Shown piece after piece: positions 18,407 to 56,050 of a DNA stretch of 64,000 nt. Location: contig NC_018396.1 in assembly GCF_000208865.1 (NCBI RefSeq), positions 2,847,101-2,911,100 of the forward strand. The letters are read 5' to 3'. The position numbers were made by a program, and so were the translations under genes. Numbering within the stretch: the first letter of the stretch is position 1; each line of letters starts with the position of its first letter. Origin of the DNA: Neospora caninum Liverpool (lineage: Eukaryota > Apicomplexa > Conoidasida > Eucoccidiorida > Sarcocystidae). Under the pieces are notes generated by a model. The model was not told the origin of the DNA. It did no database searches and saw nothing but the letters and a program-made list of their open reading frames with translations.

Positions 18407-20766
18407 GAAGTCCGCTTTCCGTATTTTCCATATTTGCCGTTTCCGGTTCTCTCTGATTTATGGACACAGCCGACTCTTCAAATCCGTCTCCTTCGTCCCA
18501 GAATAAGCAACCAGACGCAGGGGAAACATGCCATGTGGCTTTGCGTCGCTGCTGGCCTCTTGCGGTTGTCTTTCCAGAGAGAAAGGCGATTCGAGACACC
18601 GAAGGGACTGAACCGCTCCCTGTTCCAAATATACAAGAGACGGCCGCTCCATTTCCTCGAAGCATCCCCGGAAGGCGGTTTTTGCACAACACTCCCGCCC
18701 TCGCCGCGGCTGCATTCTTTTCTCGCTCTCTCTGGTAACGGACTTCTCTCCACTTTTCCCGACTCACTCCGAGTCTGACAAAAATGCACACGCAGCGGCA
18801 GCGAAGAGAGGCGTGCTCCATACGGAAACCTGCAAAATGACGAAACCGTCAAATCCCTCTTGGGGAGACACGCCGCGCACGAACGAAGTACACGAGACGT
18901 GCAAGGGGTTGAGAAGCAGTGTCTTCACGGATTTTAGCGGCAAGAACCTGCATCTGTTTCCGTTGCTAGGTTCGCCCTGAGGGTAGACACATGTGGAGAA
19001 CCGGACCAGACCTACGTCGCAGGCACGTGTCTCGAATGGCGTCGCAAGGTGCGTAAACGTAAAACGCTTTCTCACTTTCCTGAAGAAAGAAGACCCACCG
19101 CCCTGCCGCCCATCCGGAAACGAACTGACGAATGTTTCTCCTTTCTTCGTTTCCCATTTTTTCCACCAGGCACTGTTTCTATCGACACCCGTAGCTTATC
19201 CACTCGGTTTTTCTGTGAAGAGGGGAGATGGCGTCGCGAGAGAACAAAGAGGCGTTTTCGTGGGCCTTGCATTTGGGGCTTTCTGCGTTACGGGCTTCGG
19301 CCAGTCTCGGCCCCTTGCCAAACACGTTGAACTTTTTTGCGACGGCTGTCGCTCGCTAGTGATCTCCCGCTCGCGCGTCCGAGAGAGATCCTCACAAAAA
19401 CGAAAGAGAAACGAAACGCAAAGGAAGTTTGCCCCTCCCGCCTTTAAATAACCTGTGAGTTATCCATCTGGAAGAAGTACGCTCTCGCTCTGGTCAGATT
19501 CCCCTGGAGATGCCTGTTTCTTTTCTTGTCTATAATCTCACCAGTGTCTCCATCGGTTGGAACGTGAGAGCAAGCAAGAACTCGACCGCGTACTTTTGTC
19601 TTGTTTCCTCGATTCGTTCACGCGCTCTCTGGACTTCTGAACCCGTGTCCCGTGTCCGTGCTTCCGCGTCACAATGGTAACTTACTACAGACCGTGGGAG
19701 CGAAGACACTCCAATATGTAACTCCGTTCACGGAAATCAAAGGAGCTTTTCACGTTCGTCCCGATAAACTACAGTTCTGCTTAAACTGAGGAGTCAAGTA
19801 GGCTTTCGGCTTCTTTGGCGGCATCACGTCCCACCCTCGCTAACACTATACGCGCGCTCCCCGGCACACATCACTTCTCTTTCTCGCAGCATTCGCCGTT
19901 TTCGGTTTTTTCGGCGTTTCTCTGTCTCGTCAGCCGTTCTTCGCCGAGTCTGCGAGCGACGAGACGCCCCGTGCGCGCTCGCGAAAGGAAAAAGTTTCCC
20001 GGGGCTGCGCCGCCCGTTTTCCCTGCTTCTTTGCTCCCTACCCGCCGGGCGTTCTTCTGCCGTGCAAAAATGCCTATCATGCTTTGCTGGATTAAACTTT
20101 CAAGCGGCTTTTTGGCTCTGCCTTCACGCCGCCCTGAATGCAGGTTTTTCTTTCCCGGGCTCCGTTTGCGCGTGCCTGCCGTGCTGGACAAACGGCCGAG
20201 AAAACGCGAAGGCCAAAAAAGCAGTGGGCGGGGAACACGGCTACACTGCATTCTCTCCTTTGGTATACTCTGTGCGCATATTTCTCCGTCCCCAAAAGCA
20301 CAGGAACCCGCGAGAGAAAGGTGGGCAGGCCCCCTCTGCGGTTTTTCGCCTCTCGCATTCTTTTCTGAGGCAAAGGGCAGGCCTACTGCGTTCGCCCGCT
20401 TCGCACGACGAACATGTTTTCTCTGCGCATTGCTTCTTCCCATTGCCTTTTCACACACACGCAGACATTCGCGGTTCGAAACAAAGGCAAGCCTACGCGG
20501 CTCGGCAGAGTTTGCGTCGCGTGTCTCCCCCCACAACGCATGCACAGAATCGGGTCCATGTTTTCATCGCGCAGCGGCACGAAACGCACGCCTCTCTTCT
20601 TTTTCTGTAAAACTATCACTTGGACACGGGCGCCGACCGTTGCACTTCCCCATGGGTGGCCGAGTCACGCTGTACCTCCACTCAGCATGCTGATAGAGAG
20701 CCCAGGAACTCTAGCGGAAAATGTCGCTGGCTCTTTCCTTTTCGTCTCCACATTCTTCTTTCCGTC
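18407..20766. other. intergenic between convergent FPPS and LAMMER kinase
   Basis: Holds the 3' regions of two convergent genes. No further protein is supported; several long open frames at 19.8-20.6 kb on both strands are mutual shadows. The only distinctive piece is a short mitochondrial-like insertion at 19758-19802. Confidence 0.5.
19758..19802 (-). other. short mitochondrial-type insertion (NUMT)
   Basis: These 45 bases are the exact reverse complement of 44490-44534, which is part of the mosaic mitochondrial insertion in the first aminopeptidase gene. The AT-richer sequence just before it (about 19675-19757) may belong to the same insertion, but I cannot identify it. The likely source is a mitochondrial non-protein segment, perhaps an rRNA fragment. 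Confidence 0.7.
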
Positions 20767-37305: not shown

Positions 37306-37899
37306 ATGTTTTATGATTCCCCAAAGCGGCCGTTATCAGGGTTGTATTTGTTTCCTCAGTGTGCGGGATCGCGTTTTCTTCCCTTCGTTCCGAAGCGTTT
37401 TTCCCTCGGCGTCCCGTCCAGTCGTTCGCAACCATCAAGGCCACGCCGTCACCACTGCGTCTCTTAAGAGGCGTTTCCAGTGGGCTGTTCGGTTGGGTTG
37501 GCCTCAGCGTTCTGCTCGCCTGCTTTATAAAGGCGGAAGTCGCAGGAGCGCGAGAGGCAGATGGAGAATGCAAGGCCGTGGAGAGGCTGGCGTACGCGCC
37601 TCCGAACCTCTACCTTGAAGACATCGTAATGAACTTCGAGTTGGACGACGAAGACACGACTGTGAGTGTGTCTCTGTTTTCCGTCTGCCCCGTGCACATG
37701 TGCACGTATGCTGTGAATCTCTGGTGGTCACCGCTCGTGGAACCGGAAGCTCGGACTATCAACCTGAGCAGAACGCAGAGTCTGATCTTTGGGCGCGGGA
37801 GGGGGTCTTCTTGTACGGGGCTGCGGCGCTGTGTACCTGTGTCGAGAGTTTTCGAAATTTGGTCTCTCCTTGCGTTCTTGCTTATGAATCTCCCGACTA

Positions 37900-38090
37900 C
37901 TAACTCAAACCCAATTTGCATTATTTAATCTAAGCATCTAACATGTTTATCCCTACTTGTTCGCCACTATTAAGGGAATGACTGATCTTTTCTTTTTCTT
38001 CGAGTACTAGGGTGATTCAGGTCCTCAAGTAAAACACTTTTTATTTAAGAACTAGGAAAATGTTTCCCTATTGGGAAATCACATATTGGG
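37900..38090. other. AT-rich island in aminopeptidase copy 1 intron
   Basis: About 190 bases with composition unlike the GC-rich surroundings, between the first and second recognised exons. It may be another organelle-derived insertion, but I could not match it to a specific mitochondrial gene. Confidence 0.35.
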
Positions 38091-41000
38091 GTGTCGCGTT
38101 CCACCTCTACAGTTTTCGTCCCTTGTGTCTCCTCTGTCCCCTTGAGCCTTCATTTCTGCCAACCGTCTGCCTCACTTCCTTTCCGTTCGTGTGTGTTTTC
38201 TTTCTCACCTGCTGACGTTTCTTCGGCCTGTGCTGGAGTCTGTCTGCCGTGTGTTCCTTTTTTCGCTCCGTATCCCCATCCGCTATCTCGTCGTCGTCTC
38301 ATCTCTCCGTGTTCCTCTGCTCTATTCTGCTGTTGTGTTCACTGATCCCCCGTCTCCTTTCCTCTCCTTTGCGTTTTCTATCAATTTTTTCTTTTCCCGC
38401 AGGTCACTTCCCTCCTGACCCTGTACCGTCGCTCCGGCACAGAGCACATGGACCTGGTTCTCGATGGAGACGCGAGTGTGATCTTGAAGAGCATCGCTTT
38501 GTCTACTCGGGCGACTCCCGCGTCGCCCTCTCTGCGTTCTCAAGCTCATATGCACTTCACCGAACTGGAGGCGCATGTGGCCGAGAACACCCAGTTCCAG
38601 TACCGCATTACTCTGGCAAACTGACGGTTGCCAAGCACCTTCTGCCCTCGAGAGCAGAAGACGGCTTCTACATCAGGACTGTGGTGTCCATAAACCCCAA
38701 GGCCAACCTGGCGCTCTTCGGTCTCTACAAGGCAGGTGACATCTTCGTCACCCTCAACGAACCCTCAGGATTCCGAAGAATCACCTACTCCATCGATCGA
38801 CCCGATGTTCTGGCCACCTACAAGGTGAGGAAGCGAGGAGACGAAACACGAAGAACTCGTCAGAAAAAGAGGGGCGAATTCCACTTAGAATTTTCGAGGA
38901 GCATTACACCTCCTTAGCCTACCCCGTCCTCGCACCTGGTTGTGGGCGAGTATGTTGCGTAACGGGGATAGGATATTCTGTATTCTCCGGCTATGTACTA
39001 CTCCTTCTTGAAGCCATGTTTTTTTGGCTCTTTCCCCAGACTCAATTCCACGGTCTTTCTATGGGAGGCGCGTGCTTTGCCGGAGAGAATCGCGTGTGAC
39101 CTTGCCCGTTCGAGTCGCGACTCATTATGCGGAGTGCAGGGGTCATTGCACGAGAAAAACTGACTAACTGCGTGATTTCTTTTCCTTTCTCATAGGTCCG
39201 CGTGTCAGCACCCACCGACCTCCCGGTTCTCCTGAGCAATGGCGACAAAGTTCTCTCTGGACCTGCGCCGGGCAACCGTCACTTCGCGGAGTTCGTATAC
39301 CCGTACCCGAAGCCGTCCTACATTTTTGCGCTCGTTGCTGGCAATTTCGCGTCCGTCAGTGACGACTTTATCACCATGGTAGGAAGAAAGCAAGAGAGCA
39401 AAAGTAGCATTCGAAGAACTAGCGGAGCCAACTTTTAACCCTTCGCTCCCTATGCATCTCCTCCCTTTTTCTCTCAGTCTCGATATCCCCTTTCTGTTGT
39501 GCTGCTTAATTTTTGCGTCTGTATCCGTGTCGTTTAGTCTAAATGCATTTCTGCTCGTGCGCGTCTCCCACGACCACTGCTACACGACTGTCTATCCCTT
39601 TGTCGTCCAGAAAAAGCCTGTGAGGTCTTCGCGTCCCTCGCCGTGTTTTAATTTCAATGACTCTGCAGTATACGTGCCTCCACGCATTCTTTTCTTCAGT
39701 CTGGACGCCGCGTGAAGGTGTCGATCTACGCACAGCTCCACCAGCAGCACCAGCTCCAATGGGCACTTCGCACTCTGCTCAAGGCAATGCGCTGGGACGA
39801 ACGGACATACGGCAGAGAGTACCAGTACACGGAGTTCCGGGTGCTATGCGTCGAAGTCTTCAACCCTGGAGCGATGGAAAACACGTCGCTCAACATCTTC
39901 AGTGCAGCCTCCTGCTTGCCGATCCCAAGCTCACGACTGGTAGGCGCGGGCGAAAACCCGAGAACACAAACTGTGCAGTCCCCAGGCGAAAAAATTCTAT
40001 TGCATGCTCGGTGTAATGTCGCGGTAAACTATAGAGATCACATGTCTTCTGGTACACTTCAAGATCATGGGTTTGGGACCGGGGGCAAGGCACGAGGCTG
40101 TAGTGGTATCGAAGCTGTCAGCGTTATCCCCCTGCAGATTGTAGCGCAGTCTGTTAAAGGTTCTGAAAAATGTAGAACATACCTCGTTGACGCCTTCCCT
40201 GTGTATCCGAGTGAGCATAGTCTGTGGAACCGGAGACACGCGGTTCGAGAAGAAGAACATCTGCATGTCTGTCAGCAGCATGCCAGTGAGATATCAATAA
40301 CGATGCAACAGGGACGGGAATGATACATCTTTTTCGCGCTGTGGGGTGCTGGGGATCAACAGATGCTGACTACCGGCTGGTCGTCGATGTCGTCGCCCAT
40401 GAGTACTTCCACAACTGGACCGGAAACCGCGTCACTTGCCGGTGAGACTGAGACACACTTTTCTGTTTGTTTCCTTTCTTCGTCGTGTATTTGTCTCTTC
40501 GTCCTTTTCTCTCATCACTTAGTCGCATCCTTCCGTCGATTCTCTCGTTGTGCGTCTTTCCAGTCTCTCCTCTGCTGTCTCCGGTTCTCGTCCCGCCCAG
40601 GGTCCGCGCCGTGGATCTCCATGACATAGCTCATCCCTTCAGTCTTTCTGGTAGTCTCCTCGCCCCGTACGACGCCGCCTTCTCTTTTTTTCGGCCTGCA
40701 CACGCCCCTCTCTCGGTCCCTCTTGTTAGGCTGGTGAATTGCGGGTAGTTCACCAGATAATCTTTAGTGGAACGTCTCTGTCTTTTTACTCTGTTTGGCG
40801 GCTTCGATTCCTCTGTTTCTCGGTCGCTTGCCTGCGCGTCCCTTCGTGGCAAGAGCTTGCCACTAGCTTGTGTGTTTCTTTGCGTGTCGTCTGGTATGCA
40901 GCGACTGGTTCCAGCTGACTCTGAAAGAAGGCTTGACGATGTTCCGCAATAACAGCTTCACGGAGGAAACGACTTCTCGTGCGATGAAGAGAATTGATGA

Positions 41001-41333
41001 TGTCTCCCACATTCTTAGCATCCAGTTCCGCGAAGACAGTGGCCCATTCGCTCATCCGATTCGTCCCGAACGATACAAGTCGATTGAGAACCTGTACACC
41101 CGAACGGTTTACCTGAAAGGTGCCGAGGTTAATCGCATCTAAGTGAATCCAGAAGGAACGAAGCCCTTCCGCGCATGCTATATAGAACCGCAATCGTTTC
41201 AACCGCTGTCTACCCCGTGCAAGTCGTACATAAGACATTTGGGCAGGCCTATATACTAAATGCAATCACCCACTCTGAAGCATCAAACGTATGGACCTGT
41301 TGACATGCACGATTTCTAACCTCCCTTTTTGTT

Positions 41334-41356
41334 TATATATATATATATATATATAT
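41334..41356. repeat. (TA)n microsatellite
   Basis: About 11 TA units in an intron of aminopeptidase copy 1. Confidence 0.85.
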
Positions 41357-44048
41357 GTATATTTATTTGTTCACATATAGGTCAGAATGATGCACATGTG
41401 CCTCATCTCCATACATTACTAATGAACCAAAATATACATATATACACTTGATGAGATATGCTTTGGATTCCTCGTGGTCTTGTGTTGCGTAGGTACCGAA
41501 CTTTGTTGGGACCGGAAGGATTCCGCAAAGGCATGGATTTGTACTTTTCCCGGCACGACGGCCAGGCGGTGACATGCGACGACCTTCGCGCCGCCATGGC
41601 AGACGCGAACAACAAAGATTTGACCCAGTTTGAAAGGTGGTACACCCAGGCAGGGACGCCGCAGGTCACGCTCGTCCATTCTTCGTACAACGCCGCGCAG
41701 GAAAAGATGCATGTGACCCTCAGCCAATATACACCGCCGACGCCGGGACAGGAGGAAAAACTCCCTCTGCATATTCCTGTCGCTGTCGGTTGCATTGGCA
41801 AAGACAGCAAACGCGATGTTCTCACTCCCGCGACTCAGGTACGTTATCCAGTTTGTGTGTTTATATGTGAATGAAGATTTGCGCGTAATGCGTATATATT
41901 GCGATATGCATATTTTTATCGGTGCGCATATCCAGGTATAAATACCGTTTCGGGGCGTGCCTTGGAAGGTGAACAGAAAGCTGATGGGCCATCCCATTTG
42001 AAACTGCGCAGCCTGCGCACCAAAGAAGAGACGACATTCTGAGATGCATATCATAACTACGTCTCACTCTCCCTGTCACTGTATGTGAATGTATATATAT
42101 ATATATTTTGATGCAGTTGCTTGGCACGCTTCTTTTTCTCCACCTGTTTCCCTTTTCGGTATATAGACATTCTGCAAGGTGCATCCACATGCAGTTTGGA
42201 GTGCGTCTCTCGAGCTGTAACTGCAAAACACACGCACGCCTCCCCTGGCACATACGAGTTGCTAGCGTCCTTGGACCCGTGAGTGTATTTCTGTCCAGCT
42301 GTTGCACCTCGAATCCCCGTAGTGTGTGTTTGTGCATGCGCCTGTTTCTTGTGTCTTTTCTGTTTAGCCAACTCTGTGTCGATGTGATCTGGTGCATACC
42401 GAGAATGTGGCTGGGCTGTTTTCAGATTCGGGAGCTGACGGAAGAGGAGCAGTCGTTCGTTCTGGATTCTGTCACGGAAGACTGCGTGCTCTCTGTTCTG
42501 CGAGACTTCTCGGCGCCAGTCAAATTGCTTTACCCCGCTCAGACGGTCGAGCAGCTGGCGTTCTTGGTGGCCCACGACTCGGACAAGGTCAACCGGTGGC
42601 AAGCGTCTCAAACGCTCTCGCGCGGGGTGCTCCTCACGCGCATTTCTGAGTACCACGCGAGAGCGGAAGAAATCGAGAATGGAGATGTGGCAGAACACGA
42701 CGTCTTTTCACCGCTTCCCGACGACTACGTGGAGACAATGCGCACAATTGTGACAGCTCCCGAGTCCTGCATGAAGAAGGATATCAAGGTGAAGGAACAG
42801 CCCATTGTCGGACTTTTGGAACGTTTCCCAGGAAAGCGTTACACTCAGCAGAACACGCAGATCTACGGGTGGCGGTCTCAAACGGAAGACCATCGTGGCC
42901 AGCGCGAAGTCTTTCATTACACCGAAAACAGATACACAAAGACATATGGCTACATACAAATATATATGTGTATATATATGTATATGTGTATATATATGTA
43001 TATTTATACATAGAAATACATACATTCATATATATCCATATATGTATGCATATATACGATGTGTATGTGTGATTTGGGTATTGACCGAATGATGGCGTAT
43101 AAGGGGGTGGTGCGCGCCTGCGTTTTCAGGCCGTGTTGTTGACTCTGCCGTCGAAAGCCCAGCTGGAACTGGCGGTCGACAGCATCGATCCCGACACTAT
43201 CCACGCCGCGGTGACTTCCGTCAGGAGAGACGTGGCCGAGCAACTGGGTGAAGAGATGCTGCGCCTATACCGAGAGCTCACACTCCCCGAAGGCACTGAA
43301 GAGTCTGGCGCCGACATCCCTCACTGGGGCAGGTAAAAAGGGAAAACGAAAACGCGAGAAGGCTGCGACTGGAACCGTTGGATAGAAAGTTTTACACAGG
43401 GACAATCGAGTGGAGAGAGACACCGGGCAGGGATGATATGCTCTACCTCTACAGTGGTATTAACAGTATCAGTGTTGGGGTACAGCATAGGCTCTCTTTG
43501 TTCCACTTCGTAATCATAATCTGTTTTATTAAGGCATGTCACTGTCTTTCCTCTCTGTTGGCGACTCAAGTTCTGCGATGCGAGGCGCAGCGGCTGCAGC
43601 AGATGCTCCAGAAGAGGCAAACAACAGAATGGTCTCGAGAGGCGAGGCAGAACCCTTCGAGATAAACAGTGCCCCCAACAGTCGACTGACGCTGCCACTG
43701 CTTTTATTTGTGGGGTGGCTGCATTCCTTTCTCTTTCGCGAGTGCCTTCCATGTTTGGGAATTCAACGCGTGGACGTTTAGTTTGAGGGTGGCTTCGACT
43801 TTTGGTGTCTCGTGTTTTGCCCCGGTGGTCAGACGCGCCCTCCGCAACGAACTTCTCCGCTTCTTGACTGCCACGCTGGACGAGAAATCGGCGCTGCTCG
43901 CTTCCAGGCACTACCACCGCGCGATGGTCATGTCCGACAAAGTTGCCGCTCTTACCGTGCTCACCGAGATCCCAGGAAGAGAGAGAGACGAAGCCTTCGA
44001 GCACTTTTACCAGGAAGTCGCCGGTCAGTTCTCATGAAGATGTGCACA

Positions 44049-44084: not shown

Positions 44085-44734
44085 TCTATATGGAGATACA
44101 TCTCTGTATGGAATAGCATGTGTTTCGAGGGTGGAAAATCAGCAGGTTCTAGACGTCTTCGCCCTAATACATGGATCAGTCCACGTCGTTTCTGTGTTCC
44201 GTCACACCGTGCCCCGTGTCGTTCAGGTCGCCTCCTGGTTCTTTCTCGTTCTTTTTTCTCCGCTTCCCTCTTCTCAGAGCTCTCCCACCCTCGTTCCGTA
44301 CTGCCTCGTCTCTCTGGCGGGCTTTCCTTCTCTCTTTCTGACTCTGTTCCTGCCCTCCCCCGTCTCGATTCTTCTCTGTTTCCTTCATTCACTTTTACCG
44401 TTTCCTCGGATGTTTTTCAGGCAACGCTGTGTTGACGGAGAAGTGGATGAGCCTGCAAACGACGTCGTCGGCGCCCGACACGGTTTGTACCTACTTGACT
44501 CCTCAGTTTAAGCAGAACTGTAGTTTATCGGGACAGACTTAGACTAGCGTTGGAGCACATTGTTTCATTCGATGAATTATCTTTGAATATGAGGATCGAG
44601 ATGGCCCGACGGTTAGACCCTGAGCGCCCATAGGTCCACTGTTCGTGTACTTATATGACTAGCCATATAGGTACCTAACCAGTGCGAGAAGGGAAGTGTG
44701 TTTCAAAAAAAAGGGATGTTTAGCCGGGAAGTTA

Positions 44735-45357
44735 GCGTCTAAAATATATAACCGAGGCTAGTATGATCAGTACCATCGTACTGGGAGAACCATGCTAACA
44801 CAATAGAACTTGGATCCGGACCCCCAATATAGATTGGTACAAAGAAGTTACCATATCCTCCGTTGGGATTCTTTAATCAGAGTATTTATAGCTCGCGTCT
44901 AAAATATATAACCGAGTATCAACTTAGATGCCCCAGACCATTAACTAAGATAAGAATATAACGAAAATTTTAAAGGATGTGGAGACCATGTATTAATATA
45001 ACAAAGATAATCAGGACCCCAGAAACTCATTTGTCCCCATGGTAGTACATATCCAAGGAAGGCAGTGGCTATAGTAAGTAGATATAAAACTAAACCAGAC
45101 ATCCAAGCGGTACCACCACCCCACTGGACTGCTTAAGACAGCTAAAAGTGTTGGATTTCAATATCCTACTACATTAAGGTTATTCCACATCGGTTATGTT
45201 CTAGGCGTAATATATGGATGGGGACAAATGAGTTTCTGGGGTGCTACAGTGATTACAAACCTCCTTTCTCCAATACCATATTTGGTACCTTGGCTACTTG
45301 GAGGATACTACCGCAAGTTAGCGTCTAAAATATATAACCGAGTATCAACTTAGATGC
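44735..45357. repeat. repeated 22/37-nt mitochondrial block, three copies
   Basis: A 22-base block beginning GCGTCTAAAATATA occurs at 44735-44756, 44895-44916 and 45321-45342, all in the same orientation. The last two extend identically to 37 bases (44895-44931 and 45321-45357). Different sequence follows the first copy, so the block behaves like a recombination junction. Confidence 0.9.
45017..45241. repeat. 24-nt inverted repeat joining two cob pieces
   Basis: 45017-45040 is the exact reverse complement of 45218-45241 and encodes WGQMSFWG in both. It is the overlap between the upstream cob fragment (minus) and the downstream cob fragment (plus), placed here in opposite orientations. Confidence 0.9.
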
Positions 45358-45809
45358 ACAGATGGACATAATTAATCCTTGTACGGTTTGTACCTACTTG
45401 ACTCCTCAGTTTAAGTTAAGGAGTCCTTTGTTTACAGCTTGTACCGTTACATTCAGGAGCCACGTTGGAGCGCGTCGCGGCTCTGAGTCGCCACGAGGCT
45501 TTCCAACCGTTCGTCCCTGGACCGGCGTATTCCCTCTTCCGCGCCTTCAGCTCGACGAGCCCTCAGTTCCACAGCAAGACAGGAACCGGGTATGCGATGG
45601 TCACCGATTTTCTGTTGATGATCGACGAGCACAACTCGCTGGTTTCCGCGCGGATTGCGGGTCCGGCGTTCTCGAACTGGAAACGCTTCACTCCTCCCCG
45701 CAGGGAGATGCTGAAGGGTGTGCTGCAAAAGCTCCGCGAGAAGCCGGGACTGTCTCTGGGCCTGAAAGAAGTCGTCGACAAAGCGCTCGCGGGCGAAGAC
45801 GACGCGTGA

Positions 45810-47369: not shown

Positions 47370-50300
47370 TCACGCCGTCGTTTCCGCAGGCGCACCCGCG
47401 AGTGCCTTTTGCACGATCTCGAGTGTATCAGGCGATAGGCCTGGAGTGCGTGCTATTCTTCTCAGCTGCTTGAGCATCTCGCCCTGTCGCGTCTTGCCGT
47501 ATTTCTTCCACTGGAGGAACGCGCCCGCCCCGCGAGCTGCGATCTGCGGGTTGAACCGGTCCACTTCCAGAACAGAGTCGGCGAGGAGCGCGTACCCGGC
47601 CCCGTCCTTGTTGTGGAATTGCGGGTTGCGCGTGAAGGAGAAAATGAGCGCGCGGAGCCTATTCGGGTTCTTCGCGGTGAAGTCGGCATGCTTCTGCAGA
47701 GCCTTCACCGTCGCCGTCACGTTCGGCACGTCGGACAAGGCTTGCACCGCAAACCACTTGTCCAGCACCAGGGCGTCTCCTGCGCGGACGACACACAATC
47801 GCGCAAAAAGCGCAAAGGAACGAGAAAAACATGAAAAAGGGAAGAAAACGAGGTAAAGAACGACAAGGGCGCGAGCATGGGCGAGGAAAAGACGATATGC
47901 TTTCCAGTATCGGACGGGGGGCGGGGGGATAAACACCAGAGGATGGGAAGAAAGACGGAAAACGTGAGGTGAAAAGAGAAAACAGGACGGCAAAAACACG
48001 AAGCTCAAGATGTGTAGGGAAAAGACACACCAACACGAAGGAGAGAGAGGCGGCACTTGGAATCTTCGGCCCTCTTTTCTTCCGCATCTGCGCCAATGCG
48101 GCTTACCCTTTGCGTCGTTGTAGAACTGTTCGAGAGCAGCTGTACGCTCACGTCCCTCGATGTCGGAAAGAATGGAAAGAGCGGCGTATTTCTCCGTCAT
48201 GCCCTTAGCAGATTTGAAGTGCTTCATCGCAATCTCTGCCGCCTGCTTGTCTTTTTCGCCAGTCAAAAAGTAGAGGACAACGTTGCGCAAGCGACGTCTG
48301 AATGGAAAAGAAGCGACAAAAGAATATGTGCAAACCCACAAGGAAAAGACGAGACTCGTGTCTTTTACACACAGACGACAGACCGCAATCAAATGGGACT
48401 TCAACCCGCACCGTTTCAGCATCCTCTTTCGTCTCTCTTCTCTCTCTCCTGTCTCTCCTCCTCTGTTGAACTTTCGCTGTTATCTGCCATCGCTCCTCTC
48501 TTCTCCGTTCTCCCAAAAGAGTTTCCAACTGCGCAGCTTGCAAGGAGGCAGGCGCCGATCTCTCTCCTCGCTGTCTCCTCAGCCGCCTGCGTCTCTAATC
48601 AAGGGCGTCGCCGAAATAGACCTAAGATGATTGCGACTGGCTCTTCTTGTCCCTCTTCTTGCCTCCGTTCAAGAACGAGAAGGAGACGAAACACAGCGTG
48701 AGACTCGGCGCGGTGTATATACCTGGCCACTTCGGACTGGTCGCGGCTCTCTTGAGTTTCCGTTTCCGGAGCAGACAAGCTCGCATAGACGTTCAGGAGC
48801 TCGGTCTTCAAGAGTCGCCCGACCTCTCGGCGAACCGACTCCGTCGCCTCCTTCAGCGCTTCTGGATCAATCGGATCCATGTCTTGTGCGACGCCATCGC
48901 GATCTGGGAGACGCAGTGTGTACGCCTGACGAGAACGGAAACGGCGCAGGAACGAGGAATTCAAAAAGAAGACCATACGGTGAAAAGAAATCTGCTAATA
49001 AGGTCTCCTCCGCCTCTTGCTCTCTCTTGTCGATATCTGGCTTCTCTTTCTCCCTCTCTTGACCTCGTTTTTTCCCTCTCTCTCTTCTCTCTCTGTCTTT
49101 CTGGCATTTTCTTTGTCTTGCTTCCCCTCTCTCAACCTCTCTTTCTCTTCTTCCCCTCTCTGCCTCGCCTTGCCTGTGACTCGTACCTGGATCGACCTGT
49201 CTCTTCCTGTGTCCAGCAGAGTTTGCTTGAAGGCCTCGACGTAGGTCTGGGGCAGCGGCTCGAAGCTGACGTTCTCCCCTTGCGTTTCTCGCCACTGCTC
49301 TGCGCGCTGCTTCAGCAGGCGAGAGGCGAGCGTGTGCGCCGCTTGCCACTTGGAAAAGTCGTCCGAGTCGTGCGCCATGAGGAACGCGATCTCCTCGTCC
49401 GTCTGCCGGTGCACCACTTTGACTGGGGCCGAGAAATCCCGCAAGAAAGACAACACGCAGTCCTCCGAAACGGCGATCTCAAACGCCTGTTCAGCCTCCG
49501 TCAGCTCCAACACCTAAAGACAGACTCCGCGCACGCAGCAAAAGGCCACATGAAAGAGAGACAACGGACGCCAGAAAAAAGAAGAGAAAGAGATGTAGAG
49601 GAGACAGACATCAGGAAGATACGGAGAAACCACGGAAAGAAAGGGAGAGGAGGGAATGAACAAAGAAAGGCGACAACGCGCTTCTGCGTGCGCCGCATCC
49701 AAACACACCACGCGTTCTTTGCAGCCGCTCTCGGCCAAGTCCAGACACGAATCTCTGCAGACCAGTGCACCCATGCATCTCGTATTTGCACACTAGCCAC
49801 GGGGAAGGACACACAGTCGCTGTATGTTGCTCGGAGACTCAGAAACGTAAAACCACAGGCATGTGTGAATGTCGCCCCTCCCACATGGATATGCGTGCGC
49901 GATTGCCCTTCAACACGGATGTGCATGTAAAACATCAAGCACAAAAAACACCACACACAATGTTTACCTCCCTACATCGGCACATATATATATATATATA
50001 TATATATATTGTAAATGAACGCTCAGACACATATACGCATATCGCATATACATATATATACCATTGTGGCAGGTTTGAGGAGGTCGGTTTTGCTGTTTTT
50101 CCCAATGAGTCCGATTTTGATGGGAATGTGGAAAGGCTTCTTCTCCTTCTGTCCTGGCGTCGGCGGTGTGTGCTGCTTGAGGGTCAATTTGTACTTTTTC
50201 GTCTCGGGTTGAAACGCAGCTTCCACAACTTCCACTTCAGGCGTCCCAGCTTGCAAGTACCACCTTTCAAACTGGGTCAAATCTTTGTTGTTCGCGTCTG

Positions 50301-53300
50301 CCATGGCGGCGCGGAAGTCGTCGCAAGTCACCGCCTGGCCGTCGTGCCGTGAAAAGTACAAATCCATGCCTTTGCGGAAACCCGCCTCACCCAACAACGT
50401 GTGATACCTGTTGACATACACAGGAAGATAGCGATTCCGATGCAAAAAAAACATAGCAGACACTGGAAACGAAACTCTCATGCGTACACAACACAAATAA
50501 ATACATGTTCATGTGTGCACAAATACACATGCAACACTCCAACACATGCAGAGACACATGAATTTTCACATGCATTGTACATTGTACGTACACGAGGGGA
50601 AACAGTGTATGTGTGTTTTTTGGCAGCGCATGTGACAGGCTTTGCGAGAGTGGCTGGCCACAGGGACTTGCGGTATTTGACGCACATGCGAATCACTTCT
50701 GCACCCTTGTCGTAGACGGTCGCCGTATAAAAGTTGTCCATGGCGATGTACGTTTCCGGCCGAATGGGGTGCGCCATCGGGCCGCTGTCTTCCGCAAATT
50801 GCCTGCTGCGGAGAAAAATGACGTCTTCGATCCGCTTGACGGCAGCGGAGCACATGTCGGCGGTGAAAAGCTGGTCGCGGAACACGGTCAAGCCCTCCTT
50901 CAAAGTAAGCTGGAACCAGTCGCTGCACAGAAGAGAAAGAAAAGAAGCGCGGGGAGGGATCGATGCAACTTCCTCAACCGGAGGCAAGAGACAGCGGAAG
51001 TCGCAGAGAGAGAAAGAGAGGGAGGCGAGAAGCGGGAAAAGAGATAGGATAAAATGAAAGAAAAGAAGGGAGAAAGAGATGAAGAGAAAAAGGTCGATAA
51101 AGGAAGAGAGGACGAAACACAAAGAAGAAGGGACAGAGAGAGGAAGAGCACAAGTCCTTCGGGCGGGAAAGCGAGCGCGAGGAAGCGGCGGAAACAGAAA
51201 GTGACAAAGACGGAAACCGAAAGTGAAAACGTTAAAGCGCATGTGAAAAAGAGACTGAGAGGCGGGGTGAATCCCTTTTGGTTGCTCTTTGTACGTGAAA
51301 AATGGAACGGAGCGAAAAAACGAAGAAACGATTGGGTGCACCGACTCACCGGCACGTCACGCGATTGCCGGTCCAGTTGTGGAAGTACTCATGGCCGATG
51401 ACATTCAAAATGCGCTGGTACTCCGCATCTGCGAAAAATTGAAATCAACAAGGACATTCACGATGTATTATGTTTCTACGTATCCGTATACATCTATATG
51501 CATATATATACATCTATATGCATATATATATATATATATATACATATGCATGCCTTTATACATGTAGATATACACAGGTGCATATTTCGACGAGTATAGA
51601 GTCGATCAACTGCCAGTCGAACGGTGTGCATCTTCGTATGCCTCTGTATCTCTGCAAAAGGCCACATGCCGACCTCTCTGTGAATCGCGCAATCCGTCTC
51701 TCGACGGCGTTACAGATCTGGTGTCCACGAACAACACTGTGCAGACATCAGTGTTCACATGCATATCCCTCTTCATCCATATTTATAAAGAGAGAAAAAA
51801 CGTGGATATGTGCCTAGATTTTTGCGAGTTAGAAGATCGGGCCTTTGTGTACTTTTGACCTGTTGTGGTTGCGGGGTCGGCGAGGAGGAGCGCAGCGTTG
51901 AAAATGTTCAAGCCCTTGTTTTCCATGGCACCCATGTTGAAGTCTTTTGCACAAACCACGTTGAAAACGTCCAGATCGTATTCCCGACCAAAACGGTCCT
52001 CGTCCCACTTCATCGACTTCATCACGCTCTCCAGCGCCCAAGTCAGCTTGCTGCTGTCTTCAGGCTCCGAAAAAATCGACACTTGCACCTTTCTTCCACT
52101 CTGAACCGAAACCACAACGCAAGCAGTCAAAGAGAGACAGCGTACGAGACAGCGTACGTCTTTGAGAATTTTCCGGCCAACTGACACAATTCATGTGTAC
52201 CGGAAAGGCAAGACACGACTGATGCAAACCAACGCGTACAATAGGAATGTTTATGTGTGCATGTGCATTATGCACTCTTCCCTTGAGTGTTTTTTGAACG
52301 CAGACCCAGATATATGCATATATATATATATATATATATATATAGCTATGTACAGAGATGAGGGGTAGTGTCTATTTGAAACTAAGACGAGGCGTGTAAA
52401 ACAGGGAAACGTTTCAAGGGCTTAATCGTCATACAGTACATCGCTGAAACTGTCGCTCTAACAACTGCGGCATCTCTCGTGCAAGACGCACGCAAAATGG
52501 TACGCCCACGCATCTGTATATCCGTGCTTCTGTATATATATATATATATATATGTATATACATGTACATGTACGCGTGTATGTATGTGCGTGTACATACG
52601 TCTACAAACAGGCACACATCGGCATCTATACATTGTTACACAAATGTGTACCACTATGCACATGTGAGGCTGGATGGGTTCGACGGGGGTGAATCCATTT
52701 CCAGAGGGTTCGATTTTGGGTGCGAGGAACGCGGGAGATTTACCATGGTGGTGAAGGTGTCGCCGATGGACTTGAGGTCTCCCGCAACGAGAGCAAAGAG
52801 GTAGCACGGTTTGTGGAACGGGTCCTCGAAGACGGCAAAGTGTCGGCCTTCTTCGCCCTCGACTTTCCCCGACTGCACAAGATTTCCGTTGCTCAGCAGA
52901 ACAGGGCTCGTCTTCTCGTCAGCAGCCAAGCGAACCTGAGGAAAGAAGAGAAAAAACTCCCGCCATCGCCTCTCCTTGTCACGGCGCCACATGCACATGC
53001 TGACAAAGGAAGCGAAATCCTACGCGTCGTGAAGAAGCGTATCCGCAGGGGTGAAGAGGTCACATGGAGGCGGAAGTCACAGGAATGGAAAGGAGACCAA
53101 GGCAGGCAGCCCCGGCGCACGTAAATCGTCTCACATAGTTTTCACCCTTTTCCGTTTTCACCGAGTTGAGGGAAAGAAAAAACGCACACTTTTCGCATGG
53201 GCCTGAAAATCTCGGTTTCGTCCAGGAAAATCATCTGGAGACGTGCCTGCCACCTCTCTGCCGCTCTCTCTTCGGGGTCTTCAGTCTTTGGTTTTCCCGG

Positions 53301-54134
53301 TCTCCCAGACGAATGCCTCTTGAGGCCAACCACCTGTCCCTCTCTTCTGCCTGTTTTCTCTTCCTCTTCCTCTCTTCTTCGTCCTACCTTGAAGAGGGAC
53401 ATGACGTCCGGGCGATCGAGGAAGTAGGTGATACGGCGGAAGCCTTCAGCCTCGCACTGAGTGACGAGGAGAGCACCGGATTTGTACAGACCCATGAGCT
53501 GGAGGTTTTCCTTCGGGTTCACGTAGACGACGGTTTTGAGTTTGAATTTCTTCTCGGCGTCTTCAGGGAGGAGGTCCGCTGGAATCACCAGGCGGCCGTC
53601 CACGTCGAGAGAGTAGACCGCCTTTTGATTCGCCTTCTGTGTCTCCGCGGAACGCAGGGACAGCGCAGCGCCGTCCAGTTCGACAGACTCGAGATCGAGG
53701 TCCTCGCCATCGAGGACGAGATCAGTAGGAGGCGTTTGAGGACGACGATGAATCGTCAGGATGGATGTCACCTGCATCACAGAGAGAGTCGCGCAACCGG
53801 AAAGCCAGGAGTCACCGCCACGGATGATACACGAAGCAGGGGTGCACATTCACACATTTAGTGGCAGAGAGAATCTCTCGACCTGTACGGGAAAACAGAC
53901 GGGAGAAAACAGACGCTACCGTATCACACACACCACCTAGTTCTCTACACACTCTCTAAGAATATTTGTGTTGCACACCGAATTGAGGAAAACCTTCATA
54001 TCTAGCGTTTGCATCCTTCCACGCATGTACAGCTATGCATCTGGATGTACATACAGACGCTGGAACCGATTTGGAAGCACACGGGGGGATCGACATGCAC
54101 CTAAATTGAGACACAAAAACTCTTGGAATACACA

Positions 54135-54174
<40 letters not shown>

Positions 54175-56050
54175 TGTGTGCAGATCGCTGTCAAAATGCA
54201 AGTGTACACAAAGATGTCGACGGACCTGTAGACACCGCTGGATTTGGCGTGCATACCTTTGTTTTGTCCTCATAGAGATCGAAGTCGAGGTCCACGAAGT
54301 CGATGAAGAACTCGGGAGGCTTGTAGTCGAGGCGGTGTTTTTCGACAGGTTGCTTGGCGGGTTTCAGAACCATATGGTTTTGCTCCGCCTGTTTCTCCGT
54401 TTCCGTGGTGGTTGTGGATCCACTGACGCCCACAGGCGCAGCCTCGGCTGTCGCGGCCTTTCCCATTTTTGCGGAGTTTGCGGATTTGACTGGCGTGGCG
54501 GAGGCCGTCGCGAAAAAGGCGGAGGAGAAGAAAGGCACAGCGGGGGAGAGACAAGAGACAGTTCGAATAGCCTTGTCTAGCCAAGGAATGGGAAGGAGGG
54601 AGAGAGGCGACACCGACACAGAGAGGAAGGGCTGTGCGGGAACGGCGGCGGCCGGCCAGAAGGACTGAGCACCACAAGCAGAGGGATGTTTTCCAACTGC
54701 TGCGAGCTTCCTTTCCTCTTGGGCGAAGACCCCGTCTGGAATTTCTCTGCGTCCGAGTTCTCGCTGCTGCGCAGCCGAGCACAGGCCTTTCCCTCGGAGA
54801 GAGCGAGGAAGCGAAGATTTCAGGCAGAGACGGGGAGCGGAGGAAAGCATGCGTGTGGCGGAAGACGACGCTGGCGGCGAAGTCACGAACGGGGTAACGG
54901 CTGCAGCCAGAGGAAAAGAGTACGTCGCCAGCATACAGAACGCCACAGTCAAGAGCGCTGCGGTGGGGCGAGCGAAGAACGACATGCCCCCGGAAGCGCG
55001 ACAAGAAGTACGGACAGAAGAAAAGAGGGGAGGCGGAGAGGCGAAGGAGAACCGCGCCGGAACAGTCGACCGGCTCCGCGCGTCGAGAGTAGCGGACGGG
55101 AGTGTGGCGGGTAAGGACGAGTGGACACACGCGGAACGCGACGAAGCGGAAGCCCGCGACCCAGTTGAAAAAGGTCTCCGATAGGGGAGAGCAGAGAGAG
55201 GGGAAAAATGCGAAAAACCAGAAGGAATTGTCGGGAAGGAAAAAACGGAACGGAACCCGAAAGCCTCTGGAGTCGCCCGCGGCACAACCACGCCCCGGAC
55301 GGGTTTCACGAACTCGGCCGTGTTTGCTCCTAGGCAGACACCCACCTTCGTTTCCTGCTCGAGGTTCGGCTCTTGTCCGCAGAGGAAATGGACAGTTTTC
55401 GTCTCAGACGACGCCCAAGGCACGAGGAAAGAACCGAGCTGACACTCGTGTGACGACGTGTACATACACCCGACACCAGTGACACCACTTGCTACTGCTG
55501 CAGGTACGCGGGTCGTTTGCACGGAAGCATCAGGTGTTTTTTCACGGGATTTCCGCGGAAGAGAAAAGCGTGCAGTTGTATTGCCTGCCGGACAAGACGA
55601 ATCGCTGAACCGAGGAATTGAAGTAGTGGCGAACAGTCCGTGTGTTGTGTCACTTCGCGCTTCCTTGCCGCCACCCCGCTGTTTCCTGACACAGGAGGCG
55701 CTGCCTACCGTGGTGGGCAGTCTTGTACGGCCTCCCCCCTTCTCTGCAGCCCCCGCGGCTTCTTTTTTGAGCAGACAAGCAGCTCTGGTGCGGAGAAACA
55801 CCGGCCCTTCTCTCTTCCCGGATTTGTGCCCAGACCAAGAAAGTGGATCTTCGTTCTCTCTCGCTGCCTTTCCTTTGCATGTCTCATCATTAGACTCCAG
55901 GTGCCCCAGGAGACGACGACGCGACTGGACTCTAGAACGGACGAGGCGCAGACGCTGTGCGGTTCTCTCTTGCATTCTCTGATCTTTGCACACCGCAGCC
56001 GACCGCCACTTTATCACAGTTTTCGCTCTATTTCCTCTCAACACCGCCAT
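47370..56050 (-). CDS. PepN-type M1 aminopeptidase N, intact copy
   Basis: Zinc metallo-aminopeptidase that trims N-terminal residues from peptides. Eleven exons: 56050-54257, 53771-53388, 52935-52744, 52100-51860, 51428-51350, 50922-50686, 50407-50062, 49513-49187, 48925-48723, 48297-48107, 47779-47370. Phases agree throughout, giving 1467 residues. GAMEN is at 847-851, the zinc site HEYFH at 883-887 and the third ligand Glu906 exactly 18 residues later (LKEGLT). [13 protein letters not shown] and C-terminal helical PepN regions follow. Bacterial PepN is about 870 residues, so the N-terminus is extended. An in-frame ATG at 54985 opens [19 protein letters not shown], a good signal peptide or anchor, and would give 1112 residues; I cannot decide between starts. 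The intron positions match the broken copy on the other strand. In Toxoplasma, adjacent aminopeptidase N genes near FPPS are known, from memory. Confidence 0.93.
49984..50009. repeat. (TA)n microsatellite
   Basis: About 13 TA units in the intron between exons 7 and 8 of the intact aminopeptidase. Confidence 0.85.
51522..51542. repeat. (TA)n microsatellite
   Basis: About 10 TA units in the intron between exons 4 and 5 of the intact aminopeptidase. Confidence 0.8.
52318..52344. repeat. (TA)n microsatellite
   Basis: About 13 TA units in the intron between exons 3 and 4 of the intact aminopeptidase. Confidence 0.85.
52533..52553. repeat. (TA)n microsatellite
   Basis: About 10 TA units in the same intron as the tract at 52318. 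Confidence 0.8.
54138..54170. repeat. (TA)n microsatellite
   Basis: About 16 TA units in the first intron of the intact aminopeptidase. Confidence 0.85.

Follow-up and report, generated by a model that had tools for sequence, protein, structure and literature searches.

The window analysed here, a stretch of 64,000 nucleotides from the genome of Neospora caninum Liverpool, carries an M1 aminopeptidase gene on the plus strand, at about 37.5 to 45.8 kb, which lies tail to tail with an intact paralogue, NCLIV_048240. The best match of the paralogue in the PDB, 6oiu, is so close that it may be the T. gondii counterpart. The plus-strand gene is damaged, although it retains the M1 aminopeptidase motifs GAMEN and HExxH(x)18E, and its public protein is P0001 (“Aminopeptidase N, related”, Neospora caninum Liverpool). 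It is probably NCLIV_048230, or NcAPN3, an identification that draws on its adjacency to NCLIV_048240 and on PMC5939537, in which NCLIV_048230 (NcAPN3) is named among the M1 aminopeptidases. Searches of an open library, at the level of titles and the openings of abstracts, listed no paper on an insertion in NCLIV_048230, which does not in itself show that the insertion is unreported. The features of the locus are collected in the table.

Table. Features of the damaged aminopeptidase gene, its insert and its neighbour (positions in the window; F1 to F16 are the pieces of the insert)
Feature	Positions	Strand	Remark
Aminopeptidase exons 1-10	37500..44023	+	start codon provisional; catalytic GAMEN and HEXXH(x)18E present
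Reading-frame break, exon 2	38513..38615	+	frame shifts between these positions
Reading-frame break, exon 4	39898..39905	+	near 39900
Exon 6 donor without GT	41139..41140	+	GT present in the remaining 9 of 10 donors checked
Exon 11, left part	44421..44482	+	reads NAVLTEKWMSLQTTSSAPDT, ending SSAPDT
CACG, left copy of 4-bp flank	44479..44482	+	its ACG also fits mitochondrial context
Mitochondrial DNA insert	44483..45460	+	978 bp, AT-richer, inside exon 11; mosaic of about 16 pieces
F1	44483..44534	+	at least 3 copies elsewhere covering most of the piece
F2	44535..44573	+	genome copies
F3	44574..44628	+	genome copies
F4	44629..44683	+	5 of 14 differences from consensus; 3 copies among matches listed
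F5	44684..44756	+	genome copies
F6	44757..44787	+	genome copies
F7	44788..44819	+	genome copies
F8	44820..44863	+	minus strand gives cox1-like motif (weak)
F9	44864..44894	+	five other genome places
F10	44895..44931	+	second copy of repeated GCGTCTAAAATATATAACCGAG end
F11	44932..44982	+	one other copy among matches listed, 88% identity
F12	44983..45012	+	genome copies
F13	45013..45112	-	cytochrome b reversed
F14	45113..45219	+	genome copies
F15	45220..45312	+	cytochrome b forward; 28 bp of gene in common with F13
F16	45313..45460	+	genome copies
CACG, right copy	45461..45464	+	nuclear sequence starts again
Exon 11, right part	45465..45809	+	from LERV... to the stop codon; last part of DUF3458_C
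Paralogue NCLIV_048240 (P0005)	47370..54466	-	intact; tail to tail with damaged gene

The insert is set between the two halves of exon 11 on a contig of 6,985,512 bases, with nuclear sequence on both sides at the level of the assembly. An insertion between the codons for APDT and LERV had been recognised in the initial annotation, and its coordinates proved right (the insert takes up 978 bp, 44483-45460), as did the description of its edges, since both the ACG microhomology on the left and the CACG at either side (44479-44482 and 45461-45464) are seen. At the left edge the 3-bp microhomology lies in a mitochondrial context, TTGT-ACGG, found in 9 of 12 rows of other copies, of which L006 and L030 are one place. 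At the right edge the likeness to other copies stops at 45460; five of ten rows continue with ATACCGTT and one with ATGCCGTT, where the insert is followed by CACG.

The reading frame of exon 11 enters the insert for 19 codons and then meets a TAG at 44540-44542. This premature stop removes the last 114 residues, corresponding to about positions 210-320 of the 320-position model of the C-terminal domain, and the C-terminal helical domain of the M1 aminopeptidase, from which the insert separates these residues, is not whole in one frame. The earlier claim that mitochondrial DNA had landed in coding sequence holds: the insert is mitochondrial, and the exon is continuous in the paralogue, where it is unbroken as had been asserted and, once the insert is removed, aligns without gaps over 21 + 13 residues of minus-strand ORFs. 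The proteins of T. gondii (the orthologue, P0002) and Besnoitia (P0003) are also continuous across the insert site and have no extra residues there. A conserved intron, one of the alternatives named at the time, has been rejected so far in a check made on orthologous proteins rather than on orthologous DNA, as these proteins carry no added residues and none of the five CACG registers ends in the AG that the right edge of an intron would have.

The mitochondrial derivation is clearest for cytochrome b, pieces of which had been predicted and are found on both strands. The minus strand at about 45013-45111 (ORF 44944-45132) matches T. gondii cytochrome b (PDB 9g9t) with an E value of 1e-15, and the plus strand at about 45219-45313 (ORF 45078-45353) matches the adjacent region of that protein at 2.8e-17. 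The two stretches are thus neighbouring and partly overlapping parts of the gene in opposite orientation, and form a 28-bp inverted repeat of 96% identity. A Pfam search of eight translated pieces gave Cytochrome_B in two (9e-12 and 7.8e-8) and no family besides it. The label of a cox1-like piece is fair, yet the match is weak, consisting of a short motif (GGYGNFFVPIYIGGPD) with a best E value of 0.06 and no Pfam family. Rfam recognised nothing, and hence no rRNA fragments, over 44400-45500. A search of the N. caninum genome (57.5 Mb in 14 contigs), with 40 of 505 candidates scored, listed 57 matches to the insert, among which one is the insert itself and two are its own inverted repeat; each piece search likewise scored 40 candidates, so that copy numbers are lower bounds. 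The insert derives from the mitochondrial genome and is flanked by nuclear sequence in the assembly; it is most probably a NUMT. Elsewhere in the window, a 125-bp stretch at 19678-19802 is akin to NUMT loci (compare the match C12:2866858-2866902).

When the genome matches are mapped onto it, the insert falls into about 16 pieces, 30-148 bp long, and for every one of them the genome contains at least one further copy. A mosaic of this extent goes beyond the initial annotation. After a 33-nt repeat (44480-44512), the copies elsewhere continue in two ways, L014, L015 and L018 in one and L002-L005 in the other, as might be seen where two blocks of the mitochondrial genome meet. Beyond most piece ends, copies elsewhere continue in a context that they have in common with each other and that is unlike the insert. 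For 11 of the 15 internal joins, three or more copies from elsewhere extend to the join from either side, and most of them show a context unlike that of the insert; for F8/F9, F9/F10, F10/F11 and F11/F12 the aligned set has a single copy on one side, and for F4/F5 the consensus on the left side is poor. The survey of native context took in 83 of 96 loci, leaving out four insert loci, eight aminopeptidase-exon loci and L006, which overlaps L030; further overlaps among the surveyed loci are possible, and the rows used for the edge contexts include both L006 and L030.

None of the 15 joins of the insert was found in 84 other loci when 12 of 15 matching bases were required on each side of the join, on both strands, whereas 14 of 15 mid-piece controls were found in 2-20 loci each and the fifteenth, in F11, got to 11 of 15 bases. 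Because the loci had been picked for holding the pieces, the controls establish no more than the ability of the test to detect them. They number 84 of 97, being the 83 of the context survey and L097, which was added after one match of 81% seemed to cross a join; L097 does not share that join. Overlaps at the joins range from -1 to 3 bp with a mean of 0.3 (n=15), and four of the 15 show 1-3 bp. By chance about 0.7 bp of overlap per join is to be expected; the observed mean lies below this, and microhomology is therefore not needed to account for the joins.

These joins bear on the question of where the mosaic arose. It is unlikely, though it stands better than any other rival, that one intact piece of native mitochondrial DNA, already scrambled in the mitochondrion, was inserted as a whole. 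Mitochondrial DNA of T. gondii is described as 21 recombining blocks in many orders (PMC10948144), that of N. caninum is described as alike (PMC8554336), and the two continuations after 44512 resemble what such a block border would give. Against this origin are the shortness of the pieces (30-148 bp), two of which stop inside cytochrome b where many copies run on (at 45112, about 10 of the 16 rows shown run on within cytochrome b where the piece stops), and the result that 0 of 15 joins occur in any of the 84 loci. The native order was taken from nuclear copies, and from part of those in the genome, rather than from a mitochondrial assembly; as the coccidian mitochondrial genome recombines in blocks (PMC10948144), some joins of the insert could be rare native ones.

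The same test weighs on an artefact, in which mitochondrial reads or a chimeric clone were misjoined into the nuclear contig, and which we consider improbable, slightly more so than a native mosaic. The N. caninum Liverpool genome is given in PMC3310773 as an assembly of about 8x made with BigDye and PHRAP, from which the window presumably descends, and the small frame breaks of the gene resemble those of a weak consensus. Bulk mitochondrial reads, however, should hold native joins; as none of those in the insert occurs in the 84 loci with the same pieces, an assembly chimera is unlikely. Moreover, CACG stands at both edges, both exon halves are complete, the adjacent paralogue is fitted by the T. 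gondii protein P0006 with a single frame per exon, and over 9000 NUMTs are reported for the sister genus of Neospora (PMC9490983). A further gene model from N. caninum, or a transcript, was also sought: one protein search returned only P0001 and P0002, another P0121. The latter is a protein of 70 residues, identical to the last 70 of exon 11, whose contig has 1970 bases at most, and is perhaps from an independent assembly of the same spot; it begins downstream of the insert and is therefore uninformative on it.

We favour, with a probability of roughly 0.78, the reading that a break in exon 11 was sealed by non-homologous end joining, in the course of which about 16 short mitochondrial fragments were captured. 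A double-strand break would have opened exon 11 of the M1 aminopeptidase gene on the N. caninum chromosome, probably with a stagger of 4 nt that was filled in and left CACG on both sides, and the fragments would have been taken up in a single event, within roughly the last million years. The pathway is suggested by the overlaps of -1 to 3 bp and the lack of an excess of microhomology, which agree with end joining as reported, at second hand, for Toxoplasma NUMTs in PMC12181080.

The insert is one of four features that disable the assembled gene in comparison with P0002, which is intact as annotated; the others are the two frame breaks and the lost donor. All ten acceptors checked are canonical. 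The annotated protein P0005 maps to the paralogue in 11 stretches, as it must by construction, having been predicted from the same assembly. The public model P0001 sidesteps all four damaged places: the first part of exon 2 is left out, an intron stretch after exon 4 is included, the end of exon 6 is left out, and exon 10 is spliced to an AG inside the insert (ending 45456), in frame and with the loss of 20 residues. The three lesions besides the insert indicate that the gene, as assembled, is now a pseudogene, whose function would be lost; they had been missed earlier, so that the NUMT may not be what first disabled the gene. Relaxed constraint on the Neospora branch was sought by relative-rate tests with two outgroups, and no acceleration was found at the protein level, with 33 against 38 unique changes for the Besnoitia outgroup (p 0.64) and 36 against 39 for Cystoisospora (p 0.82), the mis-modelled stretches of P0001 being excluded in both. 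Consequently, either constraint on the gene lasted until recently, as its recent loss would predict, or the small lesions stem from sequence errors.

The use of an AG within the insert by P0001 also raises the thought that the insert is spliced out, with mitochondrial GT or AG sites giving a still functional enzyme gene a new intron boundary. One such pair consists of a GT at 44483 and, behind a T-rich stretch, an AG that ends at 45437; the two are mutually in frame and would add nine residues. If they were used, the result would be an intron of mitochondrial origin. The donor at 44483 looks poor in our judgement, however, and the three other lesions would have to be bypassed too, which makes splicing quite improbable.

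Capture of the fragments by end joining, if it occurred, would be a recent event. Over the 14 of 16 pieces that were compared, 14 of 893 sites in the insert depart from what most other copies have; five of the differences lie at piece edges, and four of the remainder are well supported (44650, 44653, 44708 and 45055). The internal divergence is thus about 0.4-1.0%, and the median identity of the other copies, by piece, is 88-100%. With the fourfold-site divergence of 0.856 over 28 million years given in PMC3310773, and on the assumptions that nuclear change was neutral and that the consensus represents the donor, the age of the insert would come, in order of magnitude, to a few hundred thousand years; judged by its sequence, the insert is young. 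Successive arrival of the pieces at the same spot over time can be largely set aside: NUMTs are frequent in the N. caninum genome and F4, with five differences, is more diverged than the remaining pieces, but the 13 others compared have 0 to 2 each and a single pair of flanking repeats is seen.

The locus may show, at the level of sequence, how many mitochondrial scraps were recently captured at one break and disrupted a gene: a repair product that can be read, with 15 joins inside it and an edge at either end, and that can be given a rough date. It also calls for caution, in that the gene of an N. caninum aminopeptidase named in print is probably disrupted in the reference strain. Should the insert be real in all strains, Neospora and Toxoplasma would differ in their enzyme content on account of organelle DNA.

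The insert is most likely a complex (concatenated) NUMT, of a known kind and an unusually clear example; what distinguishes it is the many, short pieces, its youth and its position in an exon that codes for part of a conserved enzyme. The NUMTs of Toxoplasma gondii (Namasivayam et al. 2023, as cited in PMC10948144 and PMC12181080) are likewise mitochondrial fragments in nuclear DNA, although the 8118 masked sites of T. gondii given in PMC10948144 average 92 nt, whereas the Neospora insert measures about 980 bp, has about 16 pieces and lies in a coding exon. Concatenated human NUMTs, as described in PMC9630118, likewise unite several mitochondrial fragments in one nuclear insert. They differ in their source, since the mitochondrial genome of Neospora is itself built of recombining blocks, and in their microhomology, reported at 51.9% of human NUMT breakpoints (PMC9630118) against 4 of 15 internal joins, with 1-3 bp, in the Neospora insert. 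Finally, the NcAPN3 of PMC5939537 (NCLIV_048230) would be the same gene, given its neighbour NCLIV_048240 and its preserved M1 motifs; it is listed there as an M1 aminopeptidase, whereas the gene analysed here has four disabling features.
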